Origin: Cordilura impudica
Taxonomy: Eukaryota; Arthropoda; Insecta; Diptera; Scathophagidae
Length of the DNA: 64,000 nucleotides
Assembly: GCA_963682025.1 (NCBI GenBank)
Contig: OY821519.1
Span: 65,466,783-65,530,782 of the forward strand
Reading direction: 5' to 3'
A program made the position numbers and the translations under genes. The notes beneath the pieces were generated by a model. The model was given only the letters and a program-made list of their open reading frames with translations, was not told the DNA's origin and did not search any database. Positions 894 through 62,087 of the stretch are shown here, piece by piece. Positions within the stretch are counted from its first letter, which is position 1. The number at the start of each line of letters is the position of its first letter.

Positions 894-3800
894 GTATTTT
901 TTTTTTCAAAATCAAAATCTTTTAAGCCATTTTTTTTTCTCTCATTATTGTTTCTAGTTAAACTGCCCGAGTTCCTAAATGCATCATCTATGACTGACGA
1001 AAAATTAAAGCTTCTTTTACAACATTTGGATACCTTTACCAAGTAAGTTGTTTAATTTTGTTTTAATAGTTTGCAATATATCAGATGTTATTAATCATGT
1101 TGCACGTTATATCGCTGAAGTTGGGATACACATAAAAACGAAATTGTTACATGATAGAATTTGATGTATTCGTATTGGTTGTAAATAAGAAATTTTTATT
1201 GGTTATTAAGGATAATATTTCGAAAAACAATATATGGGATTAGTAACAAGCAGGCACCGAAAATAACAGCTATTTGATTTTTTTTTTAACAGTAAAGCAT
1301 ATCTACATATAATAATAGGCTAGGCGATTTCTTGATACCGATGCTTTGTTCTACCGTTTTATCCCGATTTTGACCAAACTTATATTATTTGAAAATTATT
1401 TCTTTTTAGCTGTTCACCAGATTTACAGATTTTTAAATTTTTTCCTTTATTTTTAGTAAATTGCATTTAAAGTAGCTACTAACACATACATAAAATTATA
1501 CATATGCTATGTGTGTGTTTATTAAATTTGTTGGCGTGTTTGGTAATGAGTTTGTTATCTTCATTCACAATAATAATAAACCAAAAAATGATGGTTTGTG
1601 AATTGGCTAAGTTGAGAAATAAAGTTGCCTAGAATTTCGAGCGCTGGAATCTGCTAGTAGAAGTTAATGTCGAAGAACTGATTTAAGCATACAATTTTGA
1701 TTCTTGTAAGTTAGTCTTACCGAACATGCTTTGCTTTTATTTATTTATTTGTTTATTAGTCTTATAAATTTTTTTTTTTTTTTTTTTTCAATTAAATATT
1801 CTTCCTTTATTTACATATTTTAACAAATTTTGATATTTACATATGAGATCTTATCTTAACATAGATATTGCAACAAATAATATATAGGATCTAAAGACAT
1901 TAAATAGTTTTTATTTTATTTTTTAATGATTTTTAAAGGAAAATGGGAGGAAAAAACCTTTATATGATTTAATAAATTCAAATACTATCTGAAAATATTT
2001 ATATGCTTATAGAAGGTTTATTAGAAATAATAGACCTCTATAAGCATATAATTTTCAATTTGGTGATTTCTTTTTAATATTACGTTACTTTTCTACATTC
2101 TCTTATCAGTGGGTAAGAGGAATTTTCAATTTTGGCAAAATAATTGTTGTTAATCCTTGTTATGAAATCGATAATTTTTTCATAACCTGTTTCTTCATGA
2201 AGAAGATTTGTAGGATACCTCCAGGGCTTTTTATTTATCATTTTAAGACATTTGTTTTGTATAATTTGTAAGCGTTTTAGGTGGCAGTTGGCAGCGTCAC
2301 TCCAAATAGGACACGCGTATGTTAATATCGGCCTTATAACACTTTTGAAGAGTAGATTTTTGTTTTTGGGGTTTAGAAATGACCTTCTATTTAGTAGTGG
2401 CCATAATGCTTTAAATGATTTTATAGCTTTTTGGCACGTAGCCATAATATGTTGTTTAAATGTAAGCTTTTTGTCCAAGACAACTCCGAGATATTTGACC
2501 TCGTTAAGTACATTTATGGTATTATTTCCAATAAAAAGATGACGTCTTGGCAGTCTTTTGGGAGATTTGTTGAATGGAAAAATTATTGCTTGGGTCTTGT
2601 TTGGATTAATTTTGATTTTCCATTTGTGAAAATATTTACTGCAATTTACAAGTCCCTTTTCCATTTTCTTCAGGAGTGCGCTTGTAAGTTTGTTTGAAGA
2701 AATTAACGCAGTATCATCTGCGTAATAAGCAATTTTCATATATTTCGGGACTTTAAAATCGGATGTATATATCGAGTAAAGCAATGGCGACAAGACAGAT
2801 CCTTGAGGTAACCCTGTGGTAATGGTTTTTGGAGATGATGTTTCATTATTAATCGCAACTTTAAAGTTTCTGCCGTGAATGAAATCTGAAATAAGTTTGC
2901 ATAAATATTTTGGTATATTTGCATCAAGAAGTTTAAATAAGAGGCCATTATGCCAAACGGTGTCAAACGCTTTTTCAATATCTAACAATATTAGACCCGT
3001 TGAACGTTTATTGTTTTTATTTGTGGTTATTTGATTTTTAATTCTGTTTATTTGGTGCGTAGTGCTATGCCCTTTTTTAAATCCGAATTGTTCTTTGGCA
3101 ACAATAGAATTGGTCGTTACAAATTCACTAAGACGAGAATGTAGTATTTTTTCAAATATTTTACCTAAGTTACTTAATAGACTAATAGGTCTGTAGCTGT
3201 TTGGGTTATTTTTTGGCTTACTAGGTTTGTTTATGGCTATAACCTTAGCATTTTTGAAATGGTTTGGGAAATAGTTGAGTTTGATGCAGCTGTTAAATAT
3301 TATAACCAGTAATTTTAGAGCTTTGAGTGGTAGTTTCTTTAAGAGCAGGTTGGGAACATTGTCAAAACCAGGAGATTTTGAGTGTTTTATTGATGAGACA
3401 ATATTCATTACTTCTTCAAGAGATGTATAACTTGCAGATTCAGAACTGGGATTTTCCTTCTTAAAATTATTTACTGTTGTATTTATTAGTGTATCTGCCG
3501 AGTGGTTATAGTTCGAAGTGAGGTTATTTGCTTGGACAAATGTATTTGCCAGGACTTCAGCCTTGTCCTTATCAGATGTTATTTTTTTATTTCCAACTTT
3601 AAAGTGAGCGATTTGATTTTTTCCTTTTCCTCGCAAGTTCCTGCTTATTTTCCAAAATGATTTATCACCTGGTTTTAAATTGGATAATAATTGAGACCAT
3701 TTCTTATTGCGCTCCGAATTAATACTTTTATCAATCATGTTACTTAGAAACTTAGTACATTGATTATAAAAAGTTTGCTCGGCTATATTTGAAGATCGTT

Positions 3801-6800
3801 GGCTTTTTCTTTTAAAGCTTCTTCTTAGTTTAATATATTTTACAGTACTTTCTGGTAATGTGTAATTATTTTGTTGAGTTATTTTAGGTGTGGACACATC
3901 CCTTGCTTCGAAAACTACATTTATAAATTTTTGGATTTCCTGATCAATAACTACCTTGGTATTGTATATATCCGAATATAACGTGATTTTATTGTCTAAA
4001 AAATTCATAAAAATGTTCCAGTTGGTTGCACTGTAATCATAATAATTGAGGTCAACCTGCAAGGCCGTTGATCTTTTAAGTGTACATATAATAGGGCGAT
4101 GGTCTGATGGTATTTCGTAATCCATTGTTTTTACGTCTATATCTAAAGCTGAATTGCTTAAAATAATATCGACTGTGGATGCTTCGCGATTGTGTTGATG
4201 GGGGAATAGGGTTGGTCTATTAGGGTAGTGAATGAAAAAATTGCTCGATTGCTGTAGGTTGTTGAGTGCAATTCCTGCAGTATTATTTGAACGGCAATTC
4301 CAAGAACAATGTTTGGCATTTAGGTCACCAAAAACTATATATTCTTTGGTGGAAGGTGTTAGGTTCAAGATATCAGCACAGAAGTTATGAGTATATCTTG
4401 GTGAATATAACGAAGATACAACAATAGGTCTATTATTTATAATAACTTCAATTGAGATGTTTTCGATTGATGATGTGTTTGATATAAAGAGGTTTTTATG
4501 AGCGACAGATTTATGAATTAACAGAGCTACTCCTCCTCCTCTTGCATCTGTTCTGTCACTTCTATGTAAATAATAATTTTTAAAATAGGGTCTATGATTT
4601 TCTGAAAAAAGTGTTTCATTCAAAGACGCTATTTTAATATTTTCTCGTTCAATTAGTATCTCAAATTGTTTTAATTTAGAAAAGTTTGAAATGCCATTAG
4701 CATTCAAGTGAAGCATTTTGAATTCGTTTAAATTATTAGTATAATCCATGGGCGTATTTTACCATTGACATTACAACTTTGATTTGTTGTACTTTTGAAG
4801 TGCACCTATGCAAATCATCCATAGCTGTAGTGAAAATATCAAAAAGCTCATCAATGCTAAATAAATCGTTGTTTGTTTTCAGCTGGTTAGCATATGTAGC
4901 TTTGCTGTTATTATTGATGTTATTGTTACAATTTGTGTTGTTGTTTCTTAAGTTAGGAAAATCTCCCACATTAAATTGAAATGAGTTATTTTGTTGTTGT
5001 CTGCTTTTATTCGGACTTTTAGAAGTAACTCTTGTTCTAGTTTCCAAATAGAGAGAACGCAACGGACAGTTGATATCGTTTGCAGAGTGATCAGTTCTCT
5101 CTTTTCCTTGTTTTTTGCAATTAAAGCATGTAAAAACAGCTGGTCTTTTTTCGTTTGTGTTAAACGGACACACACTGGTATGATGTTGTTCTGCACATAT
5201 CATACAGGCAGCACTACGATGACAATGTTCACCGCCATGGCCATACATTAAGCAGTTCCAGCATTGAGTTGGTTTATTTCTGGATTTAGATTTGTATTTT
5301 TTCCAGGAAATTATTATATTTGAAATTGTTCTTACGTTTCTTAAGGCAGTTGGGTTAAAATTTTTACGTACAAATTGAACTTTGTAAACTGCATTGTTGT
5401 TCGAACTGAATTTGGTGACTATTTCAGCTACGGAAGAAGGGGACAGGTTGTAGTTTTTTAGCTCTGCGGTGATGTCCTCAGTTTTTATGCGGGGTAAACC
5501 GTGTAAAAAAGTGGTGTATAACCTATTATCTTTGGAGCCATAAGAGTGAAACTCCAACTTACTCTCTTTAAGAATTTGCTTGTAGCATTCGAACATTTCT
5601 TTACTTGGAGCAAAAATTTTAGTACCAATTGAAGTACGTTTGAAAATACAATCTTTACCAAGTAGTTTTTGTATTTCTGTAAATGAGGCGTTAGCTTCAA
5701 CAACAATAGGTGGAGGTTTGTGTTGTTTAACCTCGTTAATATTTGATACAGGAGTGACGTCCATATCATTAAGGCCAGCAAGCAGGCTAAATCTGTTGCT
5801 TGAAGTTGACGCGATGTTCGGGTTAAAACCCGGAGGAAGTTTTGTCATCTTCTTGTTGGCAAGGAGCTTTCTTTTTGATGAAGATTTGGCCCCTCGGGCC
5901 ATCGCTAGATTTTTTATTCCTCTTTTAAGCTGAATTGACTACCACGTGAGTTCAAATGAGATCAAGAATAGCCAATTGCAAAAACAAAAATATACACTTG
6001 TTATTAATTTTAAATAGTTGTACTCTATGCGCTTTAATTATTTACACGACCGTTCGTAAAGAGAATTAGATTCGAACTGTTAGTCTTATAAATAAATTGT
6101 AAGACTAATGAGGAATATATTAACGCTAGCTGCAAGGGCTATCGGCTCGTTAAAATAAATAAACAATTATCTATAATATTAATAGGCAAGGCGATTGCTT
6201 GTGACCGATATAAAAACTGTAGTTAATAAGCGATTTTGACCAAACGTACCTCATTTGAAATGTATTTATTTTTAGCTGTCCACTAGATTTACAGATTTGC
6301 ACCGCCTGGAACATTTTTTTTGCAGTAATGCTCATTTTAAGTTGCTACTTACACAAAAATAAAACACATACTGTGTGTTTGTTTATTATAAATATAAAAA
6401 GCTCTGTGTTGAATTGCGAATTGGCTAAAATTGATTAGCATACCTTTAGGCTCCTTTAAAATAATTTATTAACAAACCAATTTATATATCTTCTGTGTGC
6501 TCAACAAATATTTATAATGAAATTTAATGAATTTTATTTAAAAAGTGTTGAATTGTGATTTGGCCAAAATTGATTAGCTTACCTTTAGGCTCATATAAAA
6601 TTATTTATTACATGAAAAAAAAATTCGTAGAATTTGCTCTTGAATTTCGAGGGCTGGACTCTGCTAGTATAAATAATTACAATAGTTCAGATTTTAAATT
6701 CTTAGTTTAATTTTTTTAATAAAGTAAACATTTTAAATGTTAGTGACAGATGGTTCATGAAGGAGACTAAATGGCTTGTTGTTGAGGTGCTTATTTCTAA

Positions 6801-8796: not shown

Positions 8797-8801
8797 CGAC
8801 G
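8797..8801 (+). repeat. Transib target-site duplication CGACG, left
   Basis: Matches CGACG at 10746-10750 on the far side of the element. Five-base GC-rich duplications are the Transib rule. Confidence 0.8.
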
Positions 8802-8840
8802 CACAGTGGCGCCCGTAGAGCAAACGAGGTTGCAAAAATC
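8802..8840 (+). repeat. Transib left terminal repeat (heptamer, 23-nt spacer, nonamer-like block)
   Basis: Heptamer CACAGTG at 8802-8808, spacer 8809-8831, then GCAAAAATC at 8832-8840. The spacer length equals that of a 23-RSS. Confidence 0.75.
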
Positions 8841-9536
8841 AAAATTTTCATGTGCGCCGACGAAGTTTTGAATAAACCCATGTTATAGGAAACTTTTCAA
8901 CGATTTAAAATATGCTACTCTTAATAATATCACATTTTTAGTTTAGAAGATATAACCGTTCAAAGTTGACCGACTTTCGGTTTTCAAAAAAACACACAAT
9001 TTTTAGTCAATTTGTTGCGATTTCAGGTGTAATATCACGAAAAATAGGTAACGAATCGCCTTATTTTTTGTTTGTATTGATTGATGTATTTATTAAATGT
9101 ATAATGATAAAAAAAATTAACTGTTTGCTTTGTGTTTCTCCTGGTAAATCACTATTTAAAAACTATCCGTTTTTCACTATTTTTCAACTTTGACGGAAAA
9201 AAAAAATCTATATTTTCTATATTTTCCATATTTAATTATTTCTTTACATAATTCAAAAGGTTTTATCTGCCCGTACGTGCCCGTTTGGCTCCCAATATTC
9301 TGTTACAGACACAGGATGCACAAAAAACTACTCATTGAAATTCGCAGGTCCGCACCTCACTTAAAAATTACTTTGGAGTACAAATGGTCAAGAACAATAT
9401 TGACTTATGGTCCCTCCAGGTAGGCACAAATCTTATTTAGACACGAGCATAATATCAAAATTGCATAATTCAGCCTAAATCCATATGTATGCAGGGAACA
9501 GGTAAATTTTTAGGCATGGTAGCATAAGCCTATATA

Positions 9537-10660
9537 TTGCAAAATAAGCATAATGCCTGGATTAGTCTACGACTGAAAGTTGGCGCAACAAGTACTGAAA
9601 CCATGGGGTTAAACAATTTAAAATTATTTGAACTGTTTAGAAGGTCAACCACACCAAAGTTTTTCACGGAAGCTACTTTAGAAGAACTTGATAGCTTATA
9701 CGGAAATATTGAGAGAAGCGAAATTAAAAAAAATAATGTTTATCTGATATATGCAAATATTAAGGCAAAATGGGTGAAATCTAATTGAACCATTCAGAAC
9801 TTCAACTCCAAATACGAGGACTGGCTTAATGAATACACCATCCTGGATATATTGGCAGTTGATAAACCCACCACATCAACCAGAGGAGCAAAAGGAAGGC
9901 AAGAAAAAAGTATTGAGGAGTGTTCAATTTTCACAAGAAAGAGGAAACTTGCCGATGCCACCAATGACTTGACCACGAAGCATTTATCGGACGCGTTGTC
10001 TATTAAATATACAAAGGATAGTGAAAGAGTTAGGTCGCAGATTACAAAATCTGTTGCTGATGCAAGCCCACTGCGACTAAAAAGGATTAAGGAAAGCATT
10101 CCCACGCCCACAAACGCACACATTAAAAAGTATGGTTCCGAAGAAGCCTTGACCTTGTTTATGGACTTACAACTTTCCAAAGAAAAATATGAGATACTAC
10201 GGGCATGCTTGATGCGACACGGGGCTGACATTTTATCAGGATACAAGCATATTACGCAAGCCAAAATAAATTCACGACCACTGCATACGGAGTTTACGGA
10301 AGTCTCTGTGAAAGCCAATCTGCAGGATCTCATGGACCATACAGCAAAACGTTGTTGGAGAGTCTTCCTGAAAATGAGGTGAAAATTCTTGCCGAGAAAC
10401 TGACATTGATCAGCAAATGGGGCTGCGATGGATCATCCGGACAAAGCGTTTATAAGCAAAGGATATCTTCCGATGACGCTAAAATATCGGACGGAAATAT
10501 GTTTATGGCATCTGTTGTTCCTTTGCGGCTAAAATCTGATGTTTCCCTACACTGGAAAAATCCACGTCCGTCATCAGTGCATTATTGCCGACCAATCATG
10601 TTTCAGTTTGCAAGGGAATCGGCAAACGCCCCTATAAAGCGTAGCACCCTTTCCAAACGC
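9537..10660 (+). pseudogene. Transib transposase, N-terminal part, frameshifted
   Basis: Three frames in succession read as one protein: GLNNLKLFELFRR and SLYGNIERSE (frame 1), YEDWLNEYTILDILAVDKP to MDHTAKR (frame 2), then LISKWGCDGSSGQSVYKQ, FMASVVPLRL and HWKNPRPSSVHYCRPI (frame 3). KWGCDG at about 10414-10431 corresponds to the motif holding the first catalytic Asp of RAG1 (KWGCDG, Asp600). Similarity stops after FQFARE, close to the right terminus, so the regions with the other catalytic residues are deleted. The same segments occur in the copy at 43-47 kb. Confidence 0.75.
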
Positions 10661-10706
10661 TCATTTCATAGGCTGAACAGTTATCTATCATTCGGTTCAA
10701 AATATA

Positions 10707-10745
10707 TGATTTTTGCAACGAAAAAACTCAAATGGCTCCACTGTG
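10707..10745 (-). repeat. Transib right terminal repeat
   Basis: Read from the right end inward: CACAGTGGAGCC, a 22-nt spacer, then the same GCAAAAATC block. Outside are the conserved heptamer and the CGACG duplication (10746-10750). Confidence 0.75.
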
Positions 10746-10750
10746 CGACG

Positions 10751-12213
10751 TTTCCCCGTCTTCAGGGTCCTCTCATATTATTAAACATTTAGAAAAAATG
10801 CTGAATTAAAAAAAAATTGTCAAAATTTAAAATTTTAATAAATCTATTCTTTTTTTTATTGCACTCTGTTTGATTGATATTTCTATAGATATAAAATATT
10901 TATTTATTTGTATTTATTTGTAACATAATTTTATAATAATAATTAAATATTTTTTCAAAGAAAATTGGGAAATATGAAATTTTCTTTACATTGAAAAAAA
11001 AAAAAAAAACAAAAAAACGGAACATTTCCGGTAAATTGGTTTCGTTAAACGATACTATATAAATACATACGAATGAAAATGTAATCCGCGGTAAATTGAT
11101 TGCTTGGGGCTTTCAAATATCCATAATCTTGTAAAATTTTAGAATTATTTTCAAAAATTTCAATTTAAATACATGAGTTTAATCCGATACAGAGATGCCT
11201 GAAAGTTTTGTAATAATTTTTATTATTAACATTCATTTATTTTACATTGTTGCGTAGCATTTCTAGATTAATAATTTTCTTAAAAAAATAATTTTAATTT
11301 CGTAATTAAATTTAGTAAATCATTTTTTATAATAGAAATAAGTTTGTCGTGTATTAATATTAACTGTTATAATTTATAATTGATTTTTACTGGTACAACC
11401 GATTTGTCGAAGATAAACAAAATTGTGCTCCCCATGTTAAAAAATTTGCTACAATTTTTCCAATTATTTTCAATACCATATTTTTAGCAATTATAAATAA
11501 GCTCGTGTTGGATAATAAAAATTAGGTGAGAGTTTTTTCTTTAAATTTACAGTTTTTTTTCGTCCTAAGGAGTATATATAGATGAAACAGTGTTACTTAA
11601 ATTTTATGCTTATTCTTCCCCTGATATGGTAAAAAAAACTAAAAAATTAAAAAATTTTAAAGTTTATAGGCTTTTTTTTTTAATATACATTTGTATAAAC
11701 TGTAACAACATGCAAAAAATCAGAAGATGTCTACAACAACACAGTATTCAAGATATTTAGGTCGAATTGTTTAATCCTTTCTCTTGTTTGATTCTTTTTA
11801 TATTACAAAATTTATTTCTCTCATAATATGTATATTCATGGAATTTTACAACATATATTAATTTTAATATAAATATCTTTCCTTAACGATTGTTTTAATA
11901 ATACGAGCGTTAAATAAATTTAAAAAATATATTGTAAATAAATAATGTATATAAAAAAATTAAATTTTCAATTATAAATGTAAATTAAGTATATCAATAC
12001 AAAATAGACCAATATTTTAATATTATACAAAGTATAGTGATTAAGTTCATTATAAAGTTAAATAAATATTTAAAAACTATGTAACTGTGCTCAAGTAGAA
12101 ACCATTTTTGGCCGTACCCTCTTTGAATTTGATAAAATTTGGCATGAAAGTTCTATCATACTAAGATAAGAAGTATTTAAATTATGGACCTCTAGCTCTA
12201 ACAGTTTATGAAA
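10751..12213. other. AT-rich intergenic stretch
   Basis: Very AT-rich with homopolymer runs (for example around 10995-11010). I see no gene, motif or ordered repeat. Confidence 0.6.
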
Positions 12214-37332: not shown

Positions 37333-37556
37333 TCCCTTGTGATCGGACTCACATGATTTTTTTTTAATCGCAGCTCGTACGGCTTTGTTTAAACTGGGCC
37401 ATCTAATATTTTATAGTCGTAAATGAAGGATCAGGTTCCCCCAAAGTGGAATCTAGATCGGCTGTAATATTGGATGGACTGAGACCTTTTAAATGATAGT
37501 ATTGAATTACATGATGCACTGTGACCAAAATTTTGATTTCACTGACCAAAAGTAAA

Positions 37557-38300
37557 ACAAGTAAGAAAATTATAGTCGGTCTAGACCGACTATACGATAC
37601 CCTATACAATGCGTTTAGAGACCCTATCTCTAAGGCCAAACTAACTGGACATAGAAAATAAGATAAACCAAATTTGAGTGGGATTTTTATTAATTTTTTT
37701 GGCTGCAGATATGAAAAAGTTCATATCGAATGCTATATCTATATGCGCACTAGGCCTAAAATTGGACCGATCTTGATCATGTTTGGTGAGGTCTCTTGTA
37801 TTTTGCAAAAATATATACAAACAAAATTTGAAAAGAATCAGTGCCATATTTTTGTTTTTTGATAGATTTAAGTGCAGATCGGGAAGTAGCTCTACATGGG
37901 GCCTATGAGTAAGGGTTGTCCCATAGGGATAATTTTTGGACTAGTCATTAATGGATCTTATGGCAATTTATGTCGATTTCATAGGGGTCATTGTAAGGGG
38001 GCTAGGTCTGAACATGGACCGATTTTCACCAATTTCAATAGCGTTCATCCCATGGCCGATAAAAGCTTATATACCAAATTTCATCAAAATATACTCATAT
38101 TTGCGACCTGCAGTTTGATTACAAAGTTTGCATGGACACACAGACGGACGGACGGACGGACGGACATCGTTAAATCGAATCAGATAGTGATTCTGATTCC
38201 ATCGGTATAATAAAAGATGGGTCTAGGTCAAATTTTAGTAGTAGTTACAAAGAGCAGCACAAAGTCATTATACCCAAACCACATAGTGGTATAGGGTATA
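37557..38300 (+). mobile_element. Repeat family Y, copy Y4
   Basis: ACAAGTAAGAAAATTATAG with the intact palindrome at the left, ACGG microsatellite near 38143-38164, and CCACATAGTGGTATAGGG at the right. It ends 12 bp before the TSD of the next transposon. Confidence 0.82.
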
Positions 38301-38312
38301 ATTAGGTTAAAC

Positions 38313-38316
38313 TATT
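38313..38316. repeat. TATT target-site duplication, left
   Basis: Matches TATT at 42065-42068; both abut the terminal GGGTAAAAACATATG. Confidence 0.7.
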
Positions 38317-38883
38317 GGGTAAAAACATATGAAATCAACCAATGAGTTGACCGCACCGATTTCGAATTGGATGAATTTTGGTACGAAGGGAAAGTTAAAC
38401 ATAATAATAGCGTTTGCCAACTTTCAGTGTCGTAGCTCTCGTACTTTCAGAATTATGGCCATTCCAAGTTGGCAAAAATCAATAAAAATGCACTCAGATG
38501 CCTTAACACAATTTTGAATATCTCGAAAAGTGTTCATTGTACGTTAATAATCAAGGGCTCATTTTACAGACTAAAACATGCGCCATTCCAAACAAATTTT
38601 TTTTCAAATTTTCGATCAAGGATAATGTAAATAAAAAAAGGACTAAAATTTCCAAAGAATATTTCTCGAAAATCAATATTTTTAAAAATTTCAAAAAAAT
38701 ATATGTTAATTCTTATTATGTTTTGTACAAGTCTGTCAAATTTCAATGTGGAGTCTTTATTACAACATGAGTTATTAAGAAAAAAGCAGGAGAAGGTTTA
38801 TGTATTTCATGATATGTACCAAAATACAAAAAGGTGACAAATTACAAAAAGAAGGACAAATCAAATGTAAAGGAACTTTTTCG
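38317..38883 (+). repeat. Left terminal inverted repeat
   Basis: Pairs with 41489-42064. A 77-codon frame (38537-38770) in this arm and its mirror in the other arm (41834-41601) are copies of one another; they reflect the shared repeat rather than genes. Confidence 0.82.
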
Positions 38884-38982
38884 AATTTTCTTTGCTTAAA
38901 CTCTTTTTCTCCATTGCTAAACCTTTAGTAAAAAGTACATTATGTATTATCATTATTAAACACTTTATTACAGCATATATAT

Positions 38983-41036
38983 TTATTTCTGAAGGATTTC
39001 AATTAAAAAATCTGCATCTGCCGAGTATCGCTTGACTTTAAATTTTTTTTTATCTACAGGTTCAATAGAATGCAGCTTTTGAGTTCCAGGAATAGTACGC
39101 AAATCTTTAAAACGAATTTGAAGGAACCGTGCTTCTTCTTCGTGGTCTTCTAGAGTTAAAAACTCGAAATTACAGTTCAAAAGATTTTGCAGGCACCATT
39201 CATATAATTGTTTTGGAGTAGTTATTTGACCTTGTAATGGACGCTGTAAACTAGCTCGACGTGCTCTCTCTTTACGGTACCTCCAAGACCGTCACTTGGG
39301 CCTTTTCCATGGCTTGTTGCAAAAAAATGCCACTCAGCATTACATCCAAAATCTTCCATATGATAACATAAATTGATAAAGTTCTTTTTATTTTTAAACT
39401 GGGCAGCACTACCGTCTGAAAAATACGTGATTTTCTTCGGGGTTGTTTTAAACTTTTTTCTCAAAAATACATTCAGGTGGCGATGGAACAGGTGAACAGC
39501 TACAGAATCGTGTACAAGACAATCAGATATTATTATGAAGTTTGTATGTTGTGTTTTTCCATCTGATTTAAAATAAATAGCAATTGGGTATAAAGTGGCC
39601 TGAAAGTTGTTCCAGTGAAATCCCTGGACTGCATCCTGAATAGTAAAAGAAGCATTTTCTGAAAAATCGCAAACTGCTATATACTCATTTTCTTCCAAAT
39701 TTGATTTTCCTTCGCTCAAATATGCTGCCTGCTGTTTTGCAATAAATGAATGAGGTAATAGAATTTCAAGCTTTTCACATAGGGAATCCACAAAAACGTC
39801 GGCTTGGCCAAACATGGTCTCCAAATTATCCCTATCTACACTTACCCATTGTTTATATGTTATTTCATCAATATCGTTTTGCTCTAGTAATTGATTTAGT
39901 TTTGCTTTTAAATTTTCAATTCCTGGACACTTGTTACATTTACGTAGGTGACACTTTGAAGAAGATGGAATGCATGTCATTTGTTTCAAACAATCTTTGT
40001 AACATTCAAGCTGATAATTCGGAACACCAGCAGTTAATTTTTTAAAATTTATAGCATCAATCATCAGCTTCACATTTTGATGCTTTGTACAAACACACAC
40101 GTAATGAAATCCACTCGCATTTGCTAGAATTATATTCCTCGGACGAAGTTGGCAAAACCTGGAAATACCTATTTTTATTCCATCATGTCGTTCCTTGAAT
40201 AAGGCGTACATTTCTCTTGAGTTTCCAAGCAAAAGTCTTTTATTTTTCCTGACTTTTGTACCATTTTCAAAAACAGACACGAAATCTTTCTGTCCGGGCA
40301 TACACCTGCTGACGTCATCGGATTCATAAAAGGGTTTTACTAAACTGCTTGTCACTGGTGAAATTGGACTTCCCAGTTTTGGGTTAGGTGTACTCATCAC
40401 ACCCTTTGTTTCAACCAAATGCTTAACTTTTCGCGCGATATAGTTTGTAACCATGAATTCTTCCTCAGTTTTATGTATTGCCCAGCTTTTTGGTAAAATT
40501 GTTAGCAGTTGGATTTTCTCACTATTTTTTGTTAATGTTTTAAACTTTTCTTTTAATTGTTCTATTATTTCGGATTGTGGGCACATATGCGAAGTTGATT
40601 GTGCTGAACCGTGGAAAATTTTGTCTTGAATCGAATCACTTATTTTCCTGAATTTTGCATCTCTGTACCGTTTTTGATGTAACTTCTTCTTTTTTATCGG
40701 AGATTGTTCCAGATACGGTAAAGATTGGTTTAATTTTGAAATAGCAACTTCTTCCGTGCCTGACGCAATGTCATCTACTTCCGTGCCTGACGCAATGTCA
40801 TCGAAAGTATCCACATTTTCGTTTATATCTGAACCTTCTTCCAAATTAGATTTATTAGATTTCTTCAGATGCGAAAATTTTATTCTACATGTCCAACAAA
40901 TTTTATTTGAGATCGTAATGTTTTTATCCTTAGTATACTGTATCATCCATTCTTGGACTTGTCTTAAACTTTTATTGCACCCAGTGTGACCGGATTTTTT
41001 AAAAGGATTACAGCAAAATGTTGAATTGAGTGTCAT
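38983..41036 (-). pseudogene. Transposase-like protein of the long-TIR element, one frameshift
   Basis: The 604-codon frame (41036-39222) opens with MTLNSTFCCNPFKKSGH, and has Cys/His-rich N-terminal and central regions (ICWTCRIKF; CHLRKCNKCPG). The C-terminal catalytic-looking part reads YIAVCDFSENASFTIQDA, VQGFHWNNFQATLYPI, FIIISDCLVHDSVAVHLFHR, KITYFSDGSAAQFKNKKNF and EWHFFATSHGKGPSDGLGG. The acidic residues in CDFSEN, ISDCL, FSDGSAAQ and GPSDG are candidates for a DDE/D triad. At a CTCTCTCT run (39264-39272) the frame shifts, and the remaining ~95 residues continue to the stop at 38983. I know this protein type as an unnamed repeat-derived family of insects; the function as transposase is inferred. 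Confidence 0.75.
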
Positions 41037-41488
41037 ATTTTTTATTTAGATACCACAACCGAATGAATTGTGCACGACTTTTTTGTATTGACAATAATTA
41101 TAATTTATTTAAATATTTAGTCTCTTTTTTTTGTTTTTTCAAACGATCAAGTCACTTTAACACTATAACACTTTGACGTTTAGCACTTTTGAAATCTAGT
41201 ATTCAACTGAAGTTTGACTTACAGTCTCTGAACTATTTACAGTGTTTTTTTTTTGGTACAAAAAATAGATTTCAGGTAAAAAAATACACGCCTTGCTTTT
41301 CTTGAATTGGAAAATTTGCGTGAAGTACGGGTCATAAAATGTTTTTTAAATAGGGACTGAATTTGCTACTGCCAATAAGCCGACCACAGTTCATAAAATA
41401 TTTGTACATTTTTTGTGTGAACAGGCAATAAATATATAAATATAATATAAATATATAAATATATATATATCGCCTAGGTTGTAAAGTC

Positions 41489-42064
41489 GAAAAAGTTCCT
41501 TTACATTTGATTTGTCCTTCTTTTTGTAATTTGTCACCTTTTTGTATTTTGGTACATTTCATGAAATACATAAACCTTCTCCTGCTTTTTTCTTAATAAC
41601 TCATGTTGTAATAAAGACTCCACATTGAAATTTGACAGACTTGTACAAAACATAATAAGAATTAAAATATATTTTTTTGAAATTTTTAAAAATATTGATT
41701 TTCGAGAAATATCGTTTGCAAATTTTAGTCCTTTTTTTATTTACATTATCCTTGATCGAAAATTTGAAAAAAAATTTTTTTGGAATGGCGCATGTTTTAG
41801 TCTGTAAAATGAGCCCTTCATTATTAACGTACAATTAATACTTTTCGAGATATTAAAAATTGTGTAAAGGCATCAGAGTGCATTTTTATTGATTTTTGCC
41901 AAATTTGAATGGCCATTATTCTGAAAGTTCGACGGCTATATGTCTGAAAGTTGGCAAATATTATTGTGCCGATCCATAGATCATGTGTACAAAATCTTAT
42001 CAAATTTGGAGGTGATGAGGTCACAAATGTTAATATTTTCGGTTGATTTCATATGTTTTTACCC
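41489..42064 (-). repeat. Right terminal inverted repeat
   Basis: Inverse of 38317-38883; inner half nearly identical, outer ~230 bp clearly diverged, with substitutions and small gaps. Confidence 0.82.
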
Positions 42065-42068
42065 TATT

Positions 42069-43059
42069 GCTAATTGTGAGCGTGGCATGCTGTCAAACTC
42101 AACTGTTTTTTTTTAATCTCAGAAAAAGGTGAATTTTTATGTTTTTTTTTATCAAAAATAAATGGTTACTAATCGCAAGTTATCGTCGAAAATGACATGC
42201 GGTCTTCTTTACAAGGTTGGTAGCATTGCAGTCTTTAGTTGTTTAATATTAGGGGTGTTCAGAAATATTTATTAAACTACCATATTTGTGTCAAATTTTA
42301 ACTTTAGTGGAATAGAGGTTCTAGGGAACAAAAGGGAACAAGAAACGTATACACCCCAGAGAAAGGTGAAAGTGTCCTCTTTAACCGTATGCATACTTTT
42401 ACACTCGTGACGATCCGCGGGTAGAACACTTTTTTCATTTTAATTTAATTACTCAAAAAATTTTAAATTACGGTAATTCAAACAGCCCTATATGTATACA
42501 ATGATGTGTTAAATTTGTGCTTTAGGTGTTTTATAGCTTATAGTAGTCATTATTTTTTCTATTACCAGTAATGATATCTGCTTACAAAATACACTACCCT
42601 TTTGATATATATGTAAGTAAGAATGTCAATACACAGAGGAAATAATTCATTTGTAACCTGGATTTTTTTTATTATCATACTTTTTTATACCTTTTTATTT
42701 TACCTAACGTTGCAAGTAGTAAAGAAAACACATACAGGTAATTCATTTGTATAGTGGGCTTTTTATATATCATCTTAGGTAGTAATGCACTAATGCCATT
42801 TTCTGACTTTATTTTACCTAGAAACATAGTATGATGGCTTATGAGAAGGCTTATAAGAAAGTGACATTTGAATAACAATTACAGTCGCAAATAAAAATAT
42901 TCAGAAAAATATGGATTGCTTCAGTTATAAAAAAACTGGCCGAAGAGTATTTTAGGAACAAAAACCAAAAATTAAACTTAAATTCGTGTAGCATCGCCAA
43001 ATAACTAAAAAAAAAACGCTACAAAGAAGTTAGCTATAATAAACAAAACTTTTATATAT
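42069..43059. other. Unassigned stretch
   Basis: AT-rich; no coding motif or ordered repeat recognised. Confidence 0.5.
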
Positions 43060-43818
43060 CAAGTAAAAAAAATTATAGTCGGTCTAGACCGACTATACGA
43101 TACCCTATACCATGCGTTTAGAGACCCTATCTCTTAGGCCCAACTAATTGGATATAGAAAATAAGCATAAACCATATTTGAGTGGCATTTTTATTAATTT
43201 TTTTGGCTACAGATATAAAAAAGTTCATATCGGATGCTATGTCTATATGGGGACTAGGTCCAAAAATGGACCGATCCTGACCATGGTTGGTAAAGTCTCT
43301 TGTATTTTGCGAAAATATATACAAACAAAATTTGAGATGAATCAGTGCAATATTTTTGTTTTTTGATAGATTTAAGTGAAGATCGGGAAGCAGCTCTATA
43401 TGGGGCCTATGACCGAGAGTTGTCCCATAGGACCGTTTTTGGACTATTCATTAATGGATGTAATAAACACATACAAACCCAATTTGACTAAGATCTATAC
43501 AATTTGGATCTTAGGGCAATTTATGTCGATTTTATAGGGATCATTTGTATGGGGGCTAGGTCTGAACATTGACCGATTCTCACCAATTTCAACAGCGTTC
43601 ATCCCATGGCCGATGAAAGCTTATATACCAAATTTTATCAAAATGAATTCATAATTGCGACGTGCAGTTTGATTACAAGGTTTACATGGACACACAGACG
43701 GACGGACATAGTTAAATCGATTCAAAAAGTGATTCTGATTCAATCGGTATAATAAAAGATGGGTCTGGGTCAAATATGTTTGGTTGTTACAAACAGCAGC
43801 ACAAAGTCATTATACCCA
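43060..43818 (+). mobile_element. Repeat family Y, copy Y5, 3'-truncated
   Basis: Typical Y start with palindrome at about 43075-43095 and a short ACGG stretch, but the sequence changes at CATTATACCC (43818) into Transib coding sequence, so the Y 3' end and the Transib 5' end are both lost at this junction. Confidence 0.8.
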
Positions 43819-44457
43819 TTATAGCGCAAGCTGGTTAGAAGGCCAACTTACTGTCGCTTCAGAAACAACAAAGCAAAATAAGGCTGGAAGACTACGTAAA
43901 TCATTGGACAACTGCAGCGATAGATCTAAGAGGCGGAAACTTAAAGATATTAACGATGAAATTGGATGTATAAAAATAAAAGAATCTTTCCTACATCAAT
44001 TACGATCACAGCAACAATTGACAAAAGTATCGTTGAAAAAGTTGTTAAAGCTAGTCGTCCAGTGAGAACAAAACGAATTCTTAAAAATATACCAACTCCG
44101 AGCGATGCACAACAGTTCACAAATGAGGAGGCATTGGCATTATTTCTGGATGTGAAATTAACAATGCAGCAATACATTCCGCTCAGATGGCGTGCGATTG
44201 AAAAAGGCTCAAATATGTAACCAGCATATCATCACATAACCGCTGCTAAAATGGACTGTTTGCCATCAAAGGACACTACTATAATCACACCAATTTCGGC
44301 AGAGGTACAACTACAATCTCTACTTGATCACACAGCCGAACGGTTGCTACAATCAATAAAAGGAAATGAGTTCAAGAAATATGGAAACACAAAGTTAATT
44401 ATTTTTTGTAAATGGGGATGTGATGGTTCTTCAGGACAAAAACAATACAAACAAGTA

Positions 44458-45760
44458 AAGGGTCCGCCAAATAACTTTTTTTTTTTTGAAAATGCTATAA
44501 AAAAAACTACTGAATATTATCTCAAATTTCTTTTTTATTTGAAAGTACAATTCTTCCGGTTAATAATGGAAAATAATTTCATTCAAATGGCTGCCTCGGC
44601 TGGCCATGCAGTAGCCTACACAATCGGTACAATTTTTAAGCACATTATCGATTGTGTGCAACTGTATTTCACCAATGGCTTCACGAATATTGTCCTTTAA
44701 AGCGTCAATTGTCTCTGGCTTGTTGGCGTAACACTTATCTTTGAGGGCACCCCACAAATAATAGTCCAACGGTGTCAAATCGCAGCTCCGAGGTGGCCAA
44801 ACGACATCAGCTCTGTGGCTGATAATGCGATCTTCAAAAACAGGGCGCACAACATCGAGTATAGCTTCGGCTGTGTGGCACGTAGCGCTGTCCTGTTGAA
44901 ACCAAATGTTGCCAATATCCTCCTCTTCAATTTTTGTGAACAAAAATTCGTTCAACATGGTCCGATAACGATCGCCATTGACTGTAACGGCCACTCCTTG
45001 CTCATTTTCGAAGAAAAATGGCCCAGTTATGCCTCTGGACCAAAATCCGCACCAAACAGTGACTCGTTTTGGGTGTATCGGCTTTTCAATGTATGCGTGC
45101 GGGTTTTCTGTGCCCCAAATGCGACAATTTTGCTTGTTTACATACCCGCCAAGATCAAAATGAGCTTCATCTGAAAAGATGATTTTTTGGCAAAATCGGC
45201 ATCTTCTGTAAGTCGATCGCAGGCCCACTTAGCGAAGCGAAAACGCATTGGATGGTCAGTTGGCTTCAACTCCTGAACCAATTGGACTTTGTGTGGCGTC
45301 ATACCAAGGTCTTTATGCAAAATTCGTATCAATGATGCCTCCGAAATGTTCAATTCTTGAGAACGACGGTGAATTGATGTTGATGGCGCTTCACGCACAC
45401 TTTCTGCCACAGCAGCAATATTCTCGGGTGTACGCACTATTTTTGGAATTTCACGCTTTGGTTTATCGATGAGGATGCCAGTTTCTTTCACTTTTTTCAC
45501 AAGATAACGAACATACGAAGCTGACGGTGCTTCTCTTCTTCCAAAATCCGTACGCAATTTTCGCACACATTCTGCAACATTACCATGATCTTCAAAGTAA
45601 TGTCGAAATATTTCCTAGCGTTGTTCAAGCGTAAACACAACCATATTCGTTCAGCGGAAGGATAACACTAATTATCTGTCAAATCAGACATGACCTTAGT
45701 GTTACAATTCACGAAATAAGCACTAGTTGAAAAAAAAAAAACGTTAGATGGCGGACCCTT
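44458..45760 (-). mobile_element. DD41D mariner-like element (rosa-type), inserted in Transib
   Basis: 1303 bp bounded by TA on both sides (44456-44457, 45761-45762). Termini AAGGGTCCGCCAAATAAC and, reversed at the right, AAGGGTCCGCCATCTAAC. Removing it restores the Transib reading frame. It encodes a decayed transposase on the minus strand. Confidence 0.88.
44560..45644 (-). pseudogene. DD41D mariner transposase, broken
   Basis: From ATG at 45644 the frame begins MVVFTLEQR but meets TAG at once; it then continues ECVRKLRTDFGRREAPSASY and LNISEASLIRILHKDLG, shifts frame near 45185 and continues IIFSDEAHFDLGGYVNKQNC, IWFQQDSATCHTAEAI and PPRSCDLTPLDYYLWG to the C-terminus HLNEIIFHY. The catalytic Asps of SDEAH, QQDSA and PLDYY remain, with 41 residues between the last two. 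One stop and one frameshift inactivate it. Confidence 0.85.
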
Positions 45761-46880
45761 TAGTATGTGAAAATATTTCGGACCCAGATATGTTCATGGT
45801 ATCATTTGTACCACTGCTGTTGAAAAAGATTTTGGAAGATTTAGAGCCTGCGACTAGTACAACGCAAACAAAAGATATTTGGAAAAATGAGACACCATCT
45901 TCTACGAAATACTGCAGGTCAATCAAATTTGAATGAAAAAAAGAAACTCACGATGACATTAACAAAGAAGTTACTGATATTAAGGCCCAAATTGCAACCT
46001 TACTGCCATTAAAATTACGGTTAGATGGGCAACAAATTGAAGTAAGCTACCAGTTAATGCTGACAATAATAGATGGAAGGCTTCATCCAGCTGCATCATA
46101 TGCCAATCATATCAAGCCAATTAATTCAAGTTCCGACAAAAACACTAGAAAATACTGATACGTATGATTTTGGATTATCACCACTACATGCAAGAATACG
46201 ACTTATGGAACACATACTAAAAATAACTTATGATTCGGATTTCGGTTCTTCAAGAAGAAACAACGAAACCACCATGGAGTTAAGAAGTTCAAAAAAGAAA
46301 CATGTTCAGGATGAATATCGCAAATTTGGATTGATTATAGATCAGCCAAAACAAGAGTCAGGCGATACAAATGATGGCAATACCGCAAGAAGATTCTTTT
46401 CAAGTCCAGAAAAAGCATCTCAAATAACAGGAGTGGATTTAAACCTTATTTTCAGATTTAAAATAATTCTAGAAGTACTTGCGTGCAATGAAGAAATTGA
46501 CTCCAAAAAATTTACAGACTATGCTAAGGAAATATGTCTCCAATAGTACACAAAATTCTTTATCATGCAGAAGATGTCATTAAATATCATCTGGTGCCAC
46601 TTGGAGTTCTATCAGAGGAGGCTCAGGAAAAAAGGAATAATGATTACAGATTTTATAGAGAGCACAATACTAGAAAAATTTCACGAAATTCCACAAAAGA
46701 AGATCTATTTAATATATTACTGGCAACGTCAGATCCGTTCAACTCCAGTATTCGAAATCAATGGAAAGTGGAACATCGGGATTTAGATGAAGAAGTCAAA
46801 AAACTACTAAAGAACAGAAATTACACAGAACAAAATAAGGAATATTTGCAATCAATATTTGAATCAAATGAATAATAATT

Positions 46881-47689
46881 ATAAGTAGGAAAAGCGTAGA
46901 ATTAGTAAAAAACAATAATAAACAGAACCTCGCATTGTTACAAATGCTATTAAAATCTATTGCAGTTTTTTTTTTAAAGGTTTTTTACCCACATATGTAC
47001 GAAATGTTTTAATAAATACAAAGATTCAAAAAATAAAAACCCTTATTTTCATATCAAAATCAGAACCATTGCGCTAATGTTCAGCAGATTTATTTTGCAA
47101 AAATTAACAAATTTGACAGCAAAAAATTATAAATTTTTCTGTAGTAATAGCAAGACTATTAGATAATATTACTAACGTTATTTTAAGTGGAAATTTCTCT
47201 TTGAGTGTAAACAAATTTGCAAATTTGACAGAAAAAAAATTTTTAATTTTTCAGTAGCATGTAATAGCAAAATTTCCAGTTGATTTTACTTATTTTAGTG
47301 TAAAAATTTTTTTGAGTGTAAACATAAAAAAATGCTTGTTATTGCAAAAAATGCTTGTAATTATTATTAAAATCCAAATATCACATTTTTTTTTTAAATA
47401 AAAAAAATTAAAAACCCATATTTCAAGCTAAAAGTTAAAAAGTTAGAATTTCTTAAAAAGTACTCAATCAACTTTAATGAAATTAAAACAGACTCAAGTT
47501 CAACTAAATATCTACACACTAGAAAAAGAATTACTATAATATTTTGAGCGGTTTAAATGTTACGGAATTTTGGTCAATGAAAAACAATTTTCAGCCACTG
47601 TGATAGTTTACTTTTGATGATTCATAAAAATACTTAATGACGTGGCACCTTGAAAATTACAACTTATGTTTTATAAGGTTGCCACTTTT
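46881..47689. other. AT-rich stretch, possibly Transib-2 3' UTR
   Basis: No gene. CACTGTG at 47596-47602 (reverse CACAGTG), with CAAAATTCC 23 nt inside, may be the Transib right terminus; the left end is missing, so a target duplication cannot be checked. Confidence 0.35.
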
Positions 47690-56905: not shown

Positions 56906-58211
56906 ACGGGTGATTTTTTAAGAGCTTGATAACTTTTTTTTAAAAAAAGACGCATAAAATTTGCAAAATCTCATCGGTTCTTTATTTGAAACGTTAGATT
57001 GGTCCATGACATTTACTTTTTGAAGATAATTTCATTTAAATGTTGACCGCGGCTGCGTCTTAGGTGGTCCATTCGGAAAATCCAATTTTGGGCAACTTTT
57101 TCGAGCATTTCGGCCGGAATAGCCCGAATTTCTTCGGAAATGTTGTCTTCCAAAGCTGGAATAGTTGCTGGCTTATTTCTGTAGACTTTAGACTTGACGT
57201 AGCCCCACAAAAAATAGTCTAAAGGCGTCAAATCGCATGATCTTGGTGGCCAACTTACCGGTCCATTTCTTGAGATGAATTGTTCTCCGAAGTTTTCCCT
57301 CAAAATGGCCATAGAATCGCGAGCTGTGTGGCATGTAGCGCCATCTTGTTGAAACCACATGTCAACCAAGTTCAGTTCTTCCATTTTTGGCAACAAAAAG
57401 TTTGTTAGCATCGAACGATAGCGATCGCCATTCACCGTAACGTTGCGTCCAACAGCATCTTTGAAAAAATACGGTCCAATGATTCCACCAGCGTACAAAC
57501 CACACCAAACAGTGCATTTTTCGGGATGCATGGGCAGTTCTTGAACGGCTTCTGGTTGCTCTTCACTCCAAATACGGCAATTTTGCTTATTTACGAAGCC
57601 ATTCAACCAGAAATGAGCCTCATCGCTGAACAAAATTTGTCGATAAAAAAGCGGATTTTCTGCCAACTTTTCTAGGGCCCATTCACTGAAAATTAGACGT
57701 TGTGGCAGATCGTTCGGCTTCAGTTCTTGCACGAGCTGTATTTTATACGGTTTTACACCAAGATCTTTGCGTAAAATCTTCCATGTGGTCGAATAACACA
57801 AACCCAATTGCTGCGAACGGCGACGAATCGACATTTCACGGTCTTCAGTAACACTCTCAGAAACAGACGCAATATTCTCTTCTGTAGGCACTGTACGCAT
57901 TCGTGTGGTTGGTTTAATGTCCAATAAAGTAAACTGAGTGCGAAACTTGGTCACAATCGCATTAATTGTTTGCTCACTTGGTCGATTATGTAGACCATAA
58001 ATCGGACGTAAAGCGCGAAACACATTTCGAACCGAACACTGATTTTGGTAATAAAATTCAATGATTTGCAAGCGTTGCTCGTTAGTAAGTCTATTCATGA
58101 TGAAATGTCAAAGCATACTGAGCATCTTTCTCTTTGACACCATGTCTGAAATCCCACGTGATCTGTCAAATACTAATGCATGAAAATCCTAACCTCAAAA
58201 AAATCACCCGT
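56906..58211 (-). mobile_element. Intact DD41D mariner (rosa-type), inserted in X2
   Basis: 1306 bp bounded by TA (56904-56905 and 58212-58213), with TIRs beginning ACGGGTGATTTTTT at both ends. Inserted where X1 reads GATGCATTATATAATTA. Encodes an uninterrupted transposase, so it may be active. Confidence 0.92.
57013..58098 (-). CDS. DD41D mariner transposase, intact
   Basis: 361 residues without a stop, a usual length for the family; cuts and re-inserts the element at TA. The N-terminal part has two helix-turn-helix regions (NEQRLQIIEFYYQNQCSVRN; MSIRRRSQQLGLCYSTTW). Catalytic acids: Asp159 in ILFSDEAHF, Asp252 in WFQQDGATCHTA, Asp294 in CDLTPLDYFLWG. Asp252 and Asp294 are 41 residues apart, so DD41D rather than the DD34D of Mos1. 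The WVPHEL-type linker of mariners is replaced by KIQLVQELKPNDLPQR. The start ATG at 58098-58096 lies 113 bp inside the right end. Well preserved, in contrast to the broken relative at 44.5 kb. Confidence 0.95.
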   Translation of the reverse strand: MNRLTNEQRLQIIEFYYQNQCSVRNVFRALRPIYGLHNRPSEQTINAIVTKFRTQFTLLDIKPTTRMRTVPTEENIASVSESVTEDREMSIRRRSQQLGLCYSTTWKILRKDLGVKPYKIQLVQELKPNDLPQRLIFSEWALEKLAENPLFYRQILFSDEAHFWLNGFVNKQNCRIWSEEQPEAVQELPMHPEKCTVWCGLYAGGIIGPYFFKDAVGRNVTVNGDRYRSMLTNFLLPKMEELNLVDMWFQQDGATCHTARDSMAILRENFGEQFISRNGPVSWPPRSCDLTPLDYFLWGYVKSKVYRNKPATIPALEDNISEEIRAIPAEMLEKVAQNWIFRMDHLRRSRGQHLNEIIFKK

Positions 58212-59745: not shown

Positions 59746-62087
59746 TATATTTTTTATCTTTTATATTGGCGATTTTCTTTATTATATCTTAGGCTTTCTT
59801 AGGCTAATGTGACTTGTGCAGTATACCATACGCACATCCTCATGTAGAAAATGCTACAACTATAATGACCGCAGCAATAAGCAGAATTACAACATATATG
59901 TACATTTCTTAAGAAAAACAACAAACACATTGAACATTTTTATTTTTAGTTTTTGCACATTTTCATTCATATCTCGTGACCTTTTAGACCGGGTTGTTAA
60001 TAAACGATTGTACTGAGAGTGTGACCGTGATTTACACACACATATGGACAGACGGTCATAGATAAACTAACTTCCCTTGTTATAAGGATCAAGAAAATAT
60101 ATAGTTTTTGGGTCTCCAGTATTTATTTCGATGCACAGTGGTATACAAAAAATAATAAATTGCTTAATAATTTATTAGAAAAAAAAAAAATAATTCAACT
60201 TTGGTATATTTTCTTATTTCTTTCGTAATACCTATGACAGTTTTAATTTTATGTGTACATAGACACACAAACAGACGCACACAGTAATTCTAGTTGATCC
60301 GATGGGTCTGTGTCAAGTATTTTTAATAGTCACAAAAACCAGCACAAACTCATTGTATTCTTACACTTAAATTTGTTGAACGGTTTTTATTTTGTAATTC
60401 GTATTTTTTTTATTTAATAAATTTTTTACATTTTTTACGTTATAATTTTAATTTATTCATCTTTTAAATTTTAAACTTAAAACTTGGTGTATACAAAATG
60501 TTTTGTTTAACTTGAATTAAAAAATAATAAAATAAAACTATATAATGTCTTAGTTTGATATTTGTTAATTTGTTTTGTCTTCAATTATTATTTAATAACA
60601 TTAACTACAAGTTGAAAGTATTTTCATTCATACTTATGACTATAATTTCTTTTAACTTTTATTACAATTATAAACAAAATGTGGAAACTTAGTACATAAT
60701 TAGATTAAAGAGATATATGGATAGAGAGAGAGATAGAGAGAGAGAGAGATAAAGAGAATTTTAAATGTTAAAATTAAATTAATATAATTTTGTTTGTCTT
60801 TTTAGTTATAAAGTTAATAATATATTAATTCTAAAAAAATAAGTATGTTTGTAAGTATTTGTGTAAACTTATTTATAGAAAAAGAGTGCTTAGTTTATGT
60901 TAAATTTTAAGTTCTTTTTTCAATTCTATTGAAAAAAAGGTCTTGGTACTTACAACATTTTATTTAATTAATTCATTCAATAAATTATTTCAATTATTTT
61001 TGATTTTTGTGACTTTTTGGTGTTATGCACCTCTAACATAATATTGTATTGTACTAAAACCACTAAAGTTTAAAATTTTCAACGATTTAATTTGAATAAT
61101 TATGAAAACACAATATGACAATAAAGTTGAGTAGAATTATTTTTAAAGTTCTGACAAATACAAAAAACGTTTTTCTAAGCTCTATTGATTGGGATTTCAC
61201 AACACGACTTTATGGCATATTGAGCTTTCAGCTACAGAAACATTCGAGGTTTATTTTTCTACTCACTACTGGATTCTAGCTATATAAAAATATATTTTCT
61301 TTTCACAGGGTTATTTAATATTTTAAATATTAATAATCAATATTATTTTTTAAAACTATTTACGTATTGTTTTTATAATGGCCGTCACATACATCTATTA
61401 ACAATATCTAAAATGTTTTTCCAAAAATTGTTACAAGAGTTTTTTTTTATAATTCCTTTGGACGGGTTTCTTAAAGTTAAGATTAGTTTTAAACGCTTTG
61501 TGTTTTTCGATTACTTCGAAGGACGTTTATGGTTAACTTAAGGTATTTTTGTGTATTAAATTCTTGATTTCAATTGCAACTTTTTTTTTAGCGTATAGAA
61601 AAACTTATTAATAGATTTTGATTGTTTTTTTGTTTTATTCAAGACTTTTGGTTATTTTTTTTTTTAGAAATGAATATATTCTTCTGTCGGAATGTGTAAC
61701 AAAGGCTAATTTTCTAAATTAAATCTAGTAATTTGAGCATTTCATTTCGCGTAAGGATTTTCAGAATCTAAAAAAAAAATTAATTTAAATTTTTCTGAAA
61801 CATCTTTATTTAAATTTAAATCAAGTTTTAGTCTCTTTTGGCATTGAAATTAAAATATAAAATTTTAAAAATACACTGTACCACAAAATATCTATGTACG
61901 TAACAGATTTTAAATTTTGTTGAAATTTGACATTTCCTTAAATTTTTTATTAGAAATATAAAACAGAATAATAATTGACAGTCACTATACCACTTGATTC
62001 TGTACAAAAAAAAGTCTACGGACGGGTACAAAATTTTAAGTAATTTCAACATGTTTCTATATTTTGTTATCTATCTACATATACTCT
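59746..62087. other. Long AT-rich stretch without recognised genes
   Basis: No coding motif, transposon end or RNA gene recognised. Contains a GA microsatellite at 60723-60750. Confidence 0.55.
60723..60750. repeat. GA microsatellite
   Basis: GAGAGAGAGATAGAGAGAGA-type run, slightly interrupted by T. Confidence 0.85.

Follow-up and report, generated by a model that had tools for sequence, protein, structure and literature searches.

Within the 64,000-nt stretch of Cordilura impudica DNA analyzed here (the window), a segment of 1944 bp is bounded by inverted copies of CACAGTG, the heptamer that also opens the signals of antibody genes (RSS). An earlier note, made from the sequence alone, had taken this segment for a Transib element and considered its terminus unusually RSS-like. 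Two questions are raised by the locus: what the element is, and how far its ends depart from those of other Transibs.

Ends of the window element

Direct reading places the inverted heptamers at 8802–8808 (plus strand) and 10739–10745 (minus strand), as the earlier note had reported. The remaining terminal features that it had listed, namely CGACG on both sides and a nonamer-like block 23 nt (left) or 22 nt (right) inward, were found as well. The features are as follows.

8797–8801, no strand: left target-site duplication CGACG (direct reading and family comparison)
8802–8808, plus strand: left terminal heptamer CACAGTG (without mismatch at 23 of the 27 left ends located in the family)
8832–8840, plus strand: nonamer-like block GCAAAAATC, spacer 23 (exact at this spacer in 21 of 27 left ends)
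10708–10716, minus strand: nonamer-like block GCAAAAATC, spacer 22 (this spacer in 28 of 29 right ends)
10739–10745, minus strand: right terminal heptamer CACAGTG (without mismatch at 26 of the 29 right ends)
10746–10750, no strand: right target-site duplication CGACG (direct reading and family comparison)

The right end of the window copy reads CACAGTGGAGCC. At the right end of 23 of the 29 other loci stands CACAGTGGCGCC, which gives the family an outer repeat of 12 bp. To estimate chance, 5000 segments of 1944 nt were drawn at random from the window. In none of them were the first eight bases the same at the two ends; a common run of at least 12 nt within the terminal 60 nt was seen in 14, and the 5-nt flanks agreed in 13. 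The window contains the heptamer eight times where 2.6 would be expected, a count reached in one of 100 shuffles, and four of the eight occurrences belong to the ends of its two Transibs.

Copies of the family in the genome

The genome searched comprises 1.486 Gb in 855 contigs, and at least 40 copies of the family were found in it, the best 40 of 1431 candidates having been scored. The 30 best-scoring loci, window copy included, were fetched; as these are the top scorers, old or short copies are under-counted. Ungapped comparison of 40-nt ends located both ends in 27 of the 30 loci, and no left end was located by it in L006 and L016. The remaining locus, L027, carries CACAGTG at both ends and CGACG beside each, with small indels, and was excluded from the counts.

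The earlier reading called for further copies ending at CACAGTG, and these are present at the frequencies given above. The other left heptamers (n = 27) are CACAGCG (two), CATAGTG and CGCAGTG (one each); the other right heptamers (n = 29) are CACTGTG (two) and CGCAGTG (one). Terminal inverted repeats starting with CAC and resembling the RSS heptamer are what is expected of a Transib. The exact nonamer-like block is missing from six of the 27 left ends, and the one right end departing from spacer 22 has it at spacer 24.

Besides the window copy, 26 copies have both ends, and 24 of them measure 3186–3423 bp, the other two being of 2691 and 2991 bp. Long open frames are retained in L016 (667 aa, in a copy whose left end was not found), L003 (633 aa) and L002 (599 aa), which suggests that the family could have made its own enzyme recently. 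Within a shared block, the 30 copies differ from their own majority sequence by a median of 1.42% and from one another by a mean of 2.75%. This divergence points to a family that is probably young and arose in a rather recent burst of copies.

Deletions and decay of the window copy

Compared with five longer copies (L003, L005, L010, L019 and L020), the window copy has lost two internal segments, and its reading frame is broken.

8802–10745, plus strand: internally deleted Transib copy, 1944 bp (genome copies and comparison with longer copies)
9289–9290, plus strand: point at which about 150 nt present in the five copies are missing (element positions 489/488 in the window copy, 519/669 in L003)
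9603–10352, plus strand: first part of the transposase frame, with an in-frame TGA at 9786–9788 (frames and alignment)
10355–10624, plus strand: transposase frame past a frame change at about 10353, up to the deletion; its WGCDGSSGQ contains the first catalytic Asp
10624–10628, plus strand: main deletion junction, 1.1–1.2 kb, removing the rest of the catalytic domain (1823/1827 in the window copy, 2005/3130 in L003)

The first part of the frame contains the stretch aligned with GRP-K of the relatives, a stretch whose role in RAG1 is nonamer binding. KWGCDGSSGQ, which the earlier note had read in the interior, lies in an open frame at 10229–10792. Of the catalytic residues, the first Asp alone is retained, the second and third having gone with the deletion. 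The window copy is hence a dead deletion derivative that cannot make transposase, and its intact ends might be moved by the enzyme of another copy.

It could be argued that the 1944-bp form is not a single casualty and represents an amplified non-autonomous subfamily, as it has kept both ends and a clean duplication. Among the best 40 of the 1431 candidates, however, the deletion joints of the window copy are crossed by none of the 39 other main matches listed. These matches span from approximately 488–499 to 1823, and the separate 5′ piece, where listed, ends at 485–493. This count covers the 40 best-scoring candidates and leaves short derivatives outside it. On these grounds we consider an amplified subfamily very improbable. 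The segment is almost certainly a dead Transib copy shortened by internal deletion; the longer copies of its family are of about 3.2–3.4 kb.

Identity of the transposase

A read-through protein of the window copy (363 aa, the stop and the frame change being written as X) matched HzTransib (PDB 6PQN) with an E-value of 4.5e-29. The protein search with it gave 99 proteins at E ≤ 0.001 among 2596 candidates, including an unnamed 450-aa database protein (P0017) with 93% identity across 94% of the query. Eighteen Transib proteins were combined into a profile with the 667-aa L016 frame as lead sequence, and this profile matched HzTransib at 1.5e-181 and the RAG1 chains, of which 3jbw_A was the best, at 1.7e-11. 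The score of the 3jbw alignment is carried by two catalytic regions (i-Evalues 0.01 and 0.00043), and in the nonamer-binding region the GRP stretch that aligns has no significance by itself (i-Evalue 250). The profile matches both of the proteins that the earlier note had proposed for alignment, HzTransib far more strongly than RAG1. CDG, MVDGK and SEEAQES occupy the aligned catalytic places in L016, so that the family possesses the DDE triad. In Pfam, the three window-copy frames and the read-through protein had no family at E 1. Among viral contigs, three pattern matches contained no relative. A search for host genes had no hit at E 0.001 among 7246 candidates.

Three short proteins of Eumeta japonica (P0001, P0002 and P0015) resemble the window protein, with identities of 82, 90 and 90% across 42, 31 and 21% of the query. 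When compared with other family copies, P0001 drops to 71–72%, and P0002 and P0015 remain near 90%. These proteins might reflect horizontal transfer or DNA of a parasitoid fly in the assembly of this bagworm moth.

CAC-starting ends and 5-bp duplications are, according to passages of PMC7204232, common to Transib and to RAG-like transposons (RAG1L-RAG2L, ProtoRAG type), and the ends would therefore suit an element of that type as well. The protein, however, is far nearer to HzTransib than to RAG1 or RAG1L. In the 26 both-ended copies other than the window copy, the longest minus-strand frame is of 124–262 aa and faces the transposase gene, so that a convergent RAG2-like gene is absent from them. 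The long plus-strand frames seen are pieces of the transposase. That the family is of the RAG-like type is hardly credible. As for a domesticated gene retained for a host role, considered because RAG1 arose in that way, we found no support for it, and the stop, the frame change, the missing second and third catalytic residues and a divergence from the family majority (1.50%) close to the median of the 30 copies make it a negligible prospect.

Target site and empty sites

The 5-bp duplications are identical in 23 of the 27 copies with both ends; three pairs (L013, L023 and L024) have a mismatch of one base, and that of L028 is unmatched. Seventeen of the 23 identical duplications are CGNCG, a motif present 25 times in the 64,000 bases of the window. 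C stands at position 1 in 22 of the 23, G at position 2 in 21, A or T at position 3 in 21, C at position 4 in 20 and G at position 5 in all 23. The earlier note had asked whether other copies also have GC-rich duplications of 5 bp, and they do, with a preference for CGNCG that is characteristic of Transib. CGNCG is named as the Transib target in a passage of PMC4735498 and appears as the Transib site in a table of PMC5704228; the duplications of Transibs are described as GC-biased in part of PMC8289069.

For 26 of the 30 loci, the two flanks were joined and searched for in the window and in all 30 loci; in four of these 26 cases (L002, L008, L012 and L021) a match spanned the joint. The one match of L002 (82%) and nine of the ten of L008 (73–90%) are gapped. 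L012 and L021 are inserted in opposite orientation within copies of one repeat, and the window holds an uninterrupted stretch of it.

45265–45468, minus strand: empty site of L012 and L021, an uninterrupted mariner-like stretch (flank alignment)

The flanks of L012 joined through one duplication are identical to this stretch at 193 of 199 positions, and those of L021 at 94% of 200 nt, both gap-free. These gap-free empty sites place the breakpoints of the family at CACAGTG and define the target as a single CGTCG or CGACG. Different breakpoints at an empty site had been named in the earlier note as grounds for abandoning its reading; the empty site shared by L012 and L021 has the breakpoints of the family. 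Neither the window nor the 30 loci contained an empty site of the window copy itself, and its breakpoints are assigned from its own duplication and from the other copies. The repeat at 44458–45760, which we take to be mariner-like from its protein, is nested inside the second Transib of the window.

The right flank of L013 abuts a family B end (see below), and that of L019 abuts another end that looks Transib-like by eye, with one CGNCG between in each case. Special targeting beside another Transib was dropped as an explanation, as the 64-kb window has only 25 CGNCG sites, with Transib duplications among them; two such cases would need no special cause.

A second Transib and other elements in the window

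37517–47602, plus strand: second Transib (family B), older and interrupted by nested insertions (genome search and end comparison)

The window copy of family B has CACTGTG as left heptamer and CACAGTG as right heptamer (read on the minus strand). Positions 46540–47602 used as query gave at least 51 genome matches from the best 40 of 3927 candidates, and beyond 47602, where the query ends, the flanks of the copies diverge. The right end is alike in at least 28 of 40 nt in 14 of 20 fetched loci, window included. The heptamers of these 14 are CACAGTG (ten, that of the window among them), CATAGTG (two), CACGATG and CATATTG (one each).

A pattern scan from 38000 to 44300 revealed no convincing left end. 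It was located at 37517 by means of the end of L060. Of the ten copies that were fetched with 5 kb, L060 is the one whose left end is clear (CACTGTG), and it has CGACG on both sides of the element; weaker left ends were seen in L052 and L058, and none that is credible in the rest of the ten. The left end in the window agrees with that of L060 at 30 of 35 nt, and the outer duplication of the window copy is no longer recognizable. As family B also has a CACAGTG right end, this heptamer is not special to the first element even within the window.

Other features of the window were recorded. Inside family B, an insertion carries a 607-aa open frame (39222–41045, minus strand) whose best Pfam match, E 0.12, is below the cut-off. 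Two adjacent frames at 2080–5938 (minus strand) appear to form a non-LTR retrotransposon, the larger having endonuclease and reverse transcriptase domains. A 364-aa open frame at 57013–58107 (minus strand) has a helix-turn-helix match (PF16087) and looks mariner-like by eye. At 60140 (minus strand), the pattern scan gave CACTGTG and CAAAAA at RSS-like spacing, possibly by chance.

Discussion

The analysis bears out a Transib with a 5-bp duplication and RSS-like ends, through the HzTransib match, the family copies and the empty sites. That the copy is a deletion derivative and that the window holds a second Transib are additions to the earlier note. The view that its terminus is unusually RSS-like is not supported, as Transib heptamers and nonamers identical to those of the RSS have been published and the second Transib of the window also ends in CACAGTG. 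Passages of PMC8355894 describe some Transib ends with near-perfect spacers of 12 or 23 ± 1, and part of the heptamers and nonamers of these ends equal the canonical RSS; identical heptamers and nonamers at various spacer lengths in some Transib ends are mentioned in part of PMC6941560. A passage of PMC8289069 attributes little or no nonamer likeness to most Transib families, HzTransib for example, and a legend in PMC8355894 gives one Transib group symmetric spacers of 20–22. Taking both into account, the family sits at the RSS-like end of the known Transib range. Relative to the literature searched, it is a new Transib family of a known type. Passages of PMC9435367 report Transib ends of both symmetric and asymmetric type, and suggest much horizontal transfer.

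With HzTransib of Helicoverpa zea (3518 bp according to passages of PMC1852546), the family has in common a transposase resembling the RAG1 core, terminal inverted repeats and a 5-bp duplication, which is GCTCG in HzTransib. Its frames are 35–36% identical to P0034 of Helicoverpa armigera, a clear relative of HzTransib, and its ends differ from those of HzTransib, as described in PMC8289069, in having a nonamer-like block. In the passages of PMC8355894 that concern Transib5 of Drosophila melanogaster and Transib2, N1, N2 and N3 of Anopheles gambiae, these elements resemble the family in having an RSS-like heptamer and nonamer and, at one end, a spacer of 23 ± 1. They are cited there for 12/23 asymmetry, whereas the spacers of the family are 23 and 22.

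Compared with the vertebrate 23RSS, the family has an identical heptamer, a left spacer of 23 and a nonamer-like block that agrees at seven of nine positions with the consensus ACAAAAACC quoted in part of PMC8289069. It differs in its right spacer of 22, in having no partner with a spacer of 12, and in that its signal is the end of a transposon and not that of a gene segment.

The ends, the duplication, the target, the empty site and the homology can be read from the sequences themselves; for the cutting chemistry, HzTransib serves as the model. By analogy with it, the transposase of the longer copies would bind the ends through the heptamer and the nonamer-like block 22–23 nt inward, and would cleave at the outer edge of CACAGTG. 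As in HzTransib (passages of PMC6941560), cleavage by the DDE residues would leave the flank closed as a hairpin and the transposon end blunt, and strands would be joined at positions 5 bp apart. Insertion into a 5-bp target near CGNCG would then yield the duplicated target.

It is conceivable, although we think it unlikely, that vertebrate RAG1/2 recognizes and cuts the left end as a working 23RSS. If this were the case, the family would offer a natural end readable by Transib and RAG enzymes alike. As RSS-like Transib ends are already in print, the overall picture of the origin of RAG is unchanged. With its exact ends, its empty site and its CGNCG target, the family can serve as a comparison for the origin of RAG and of its signals.
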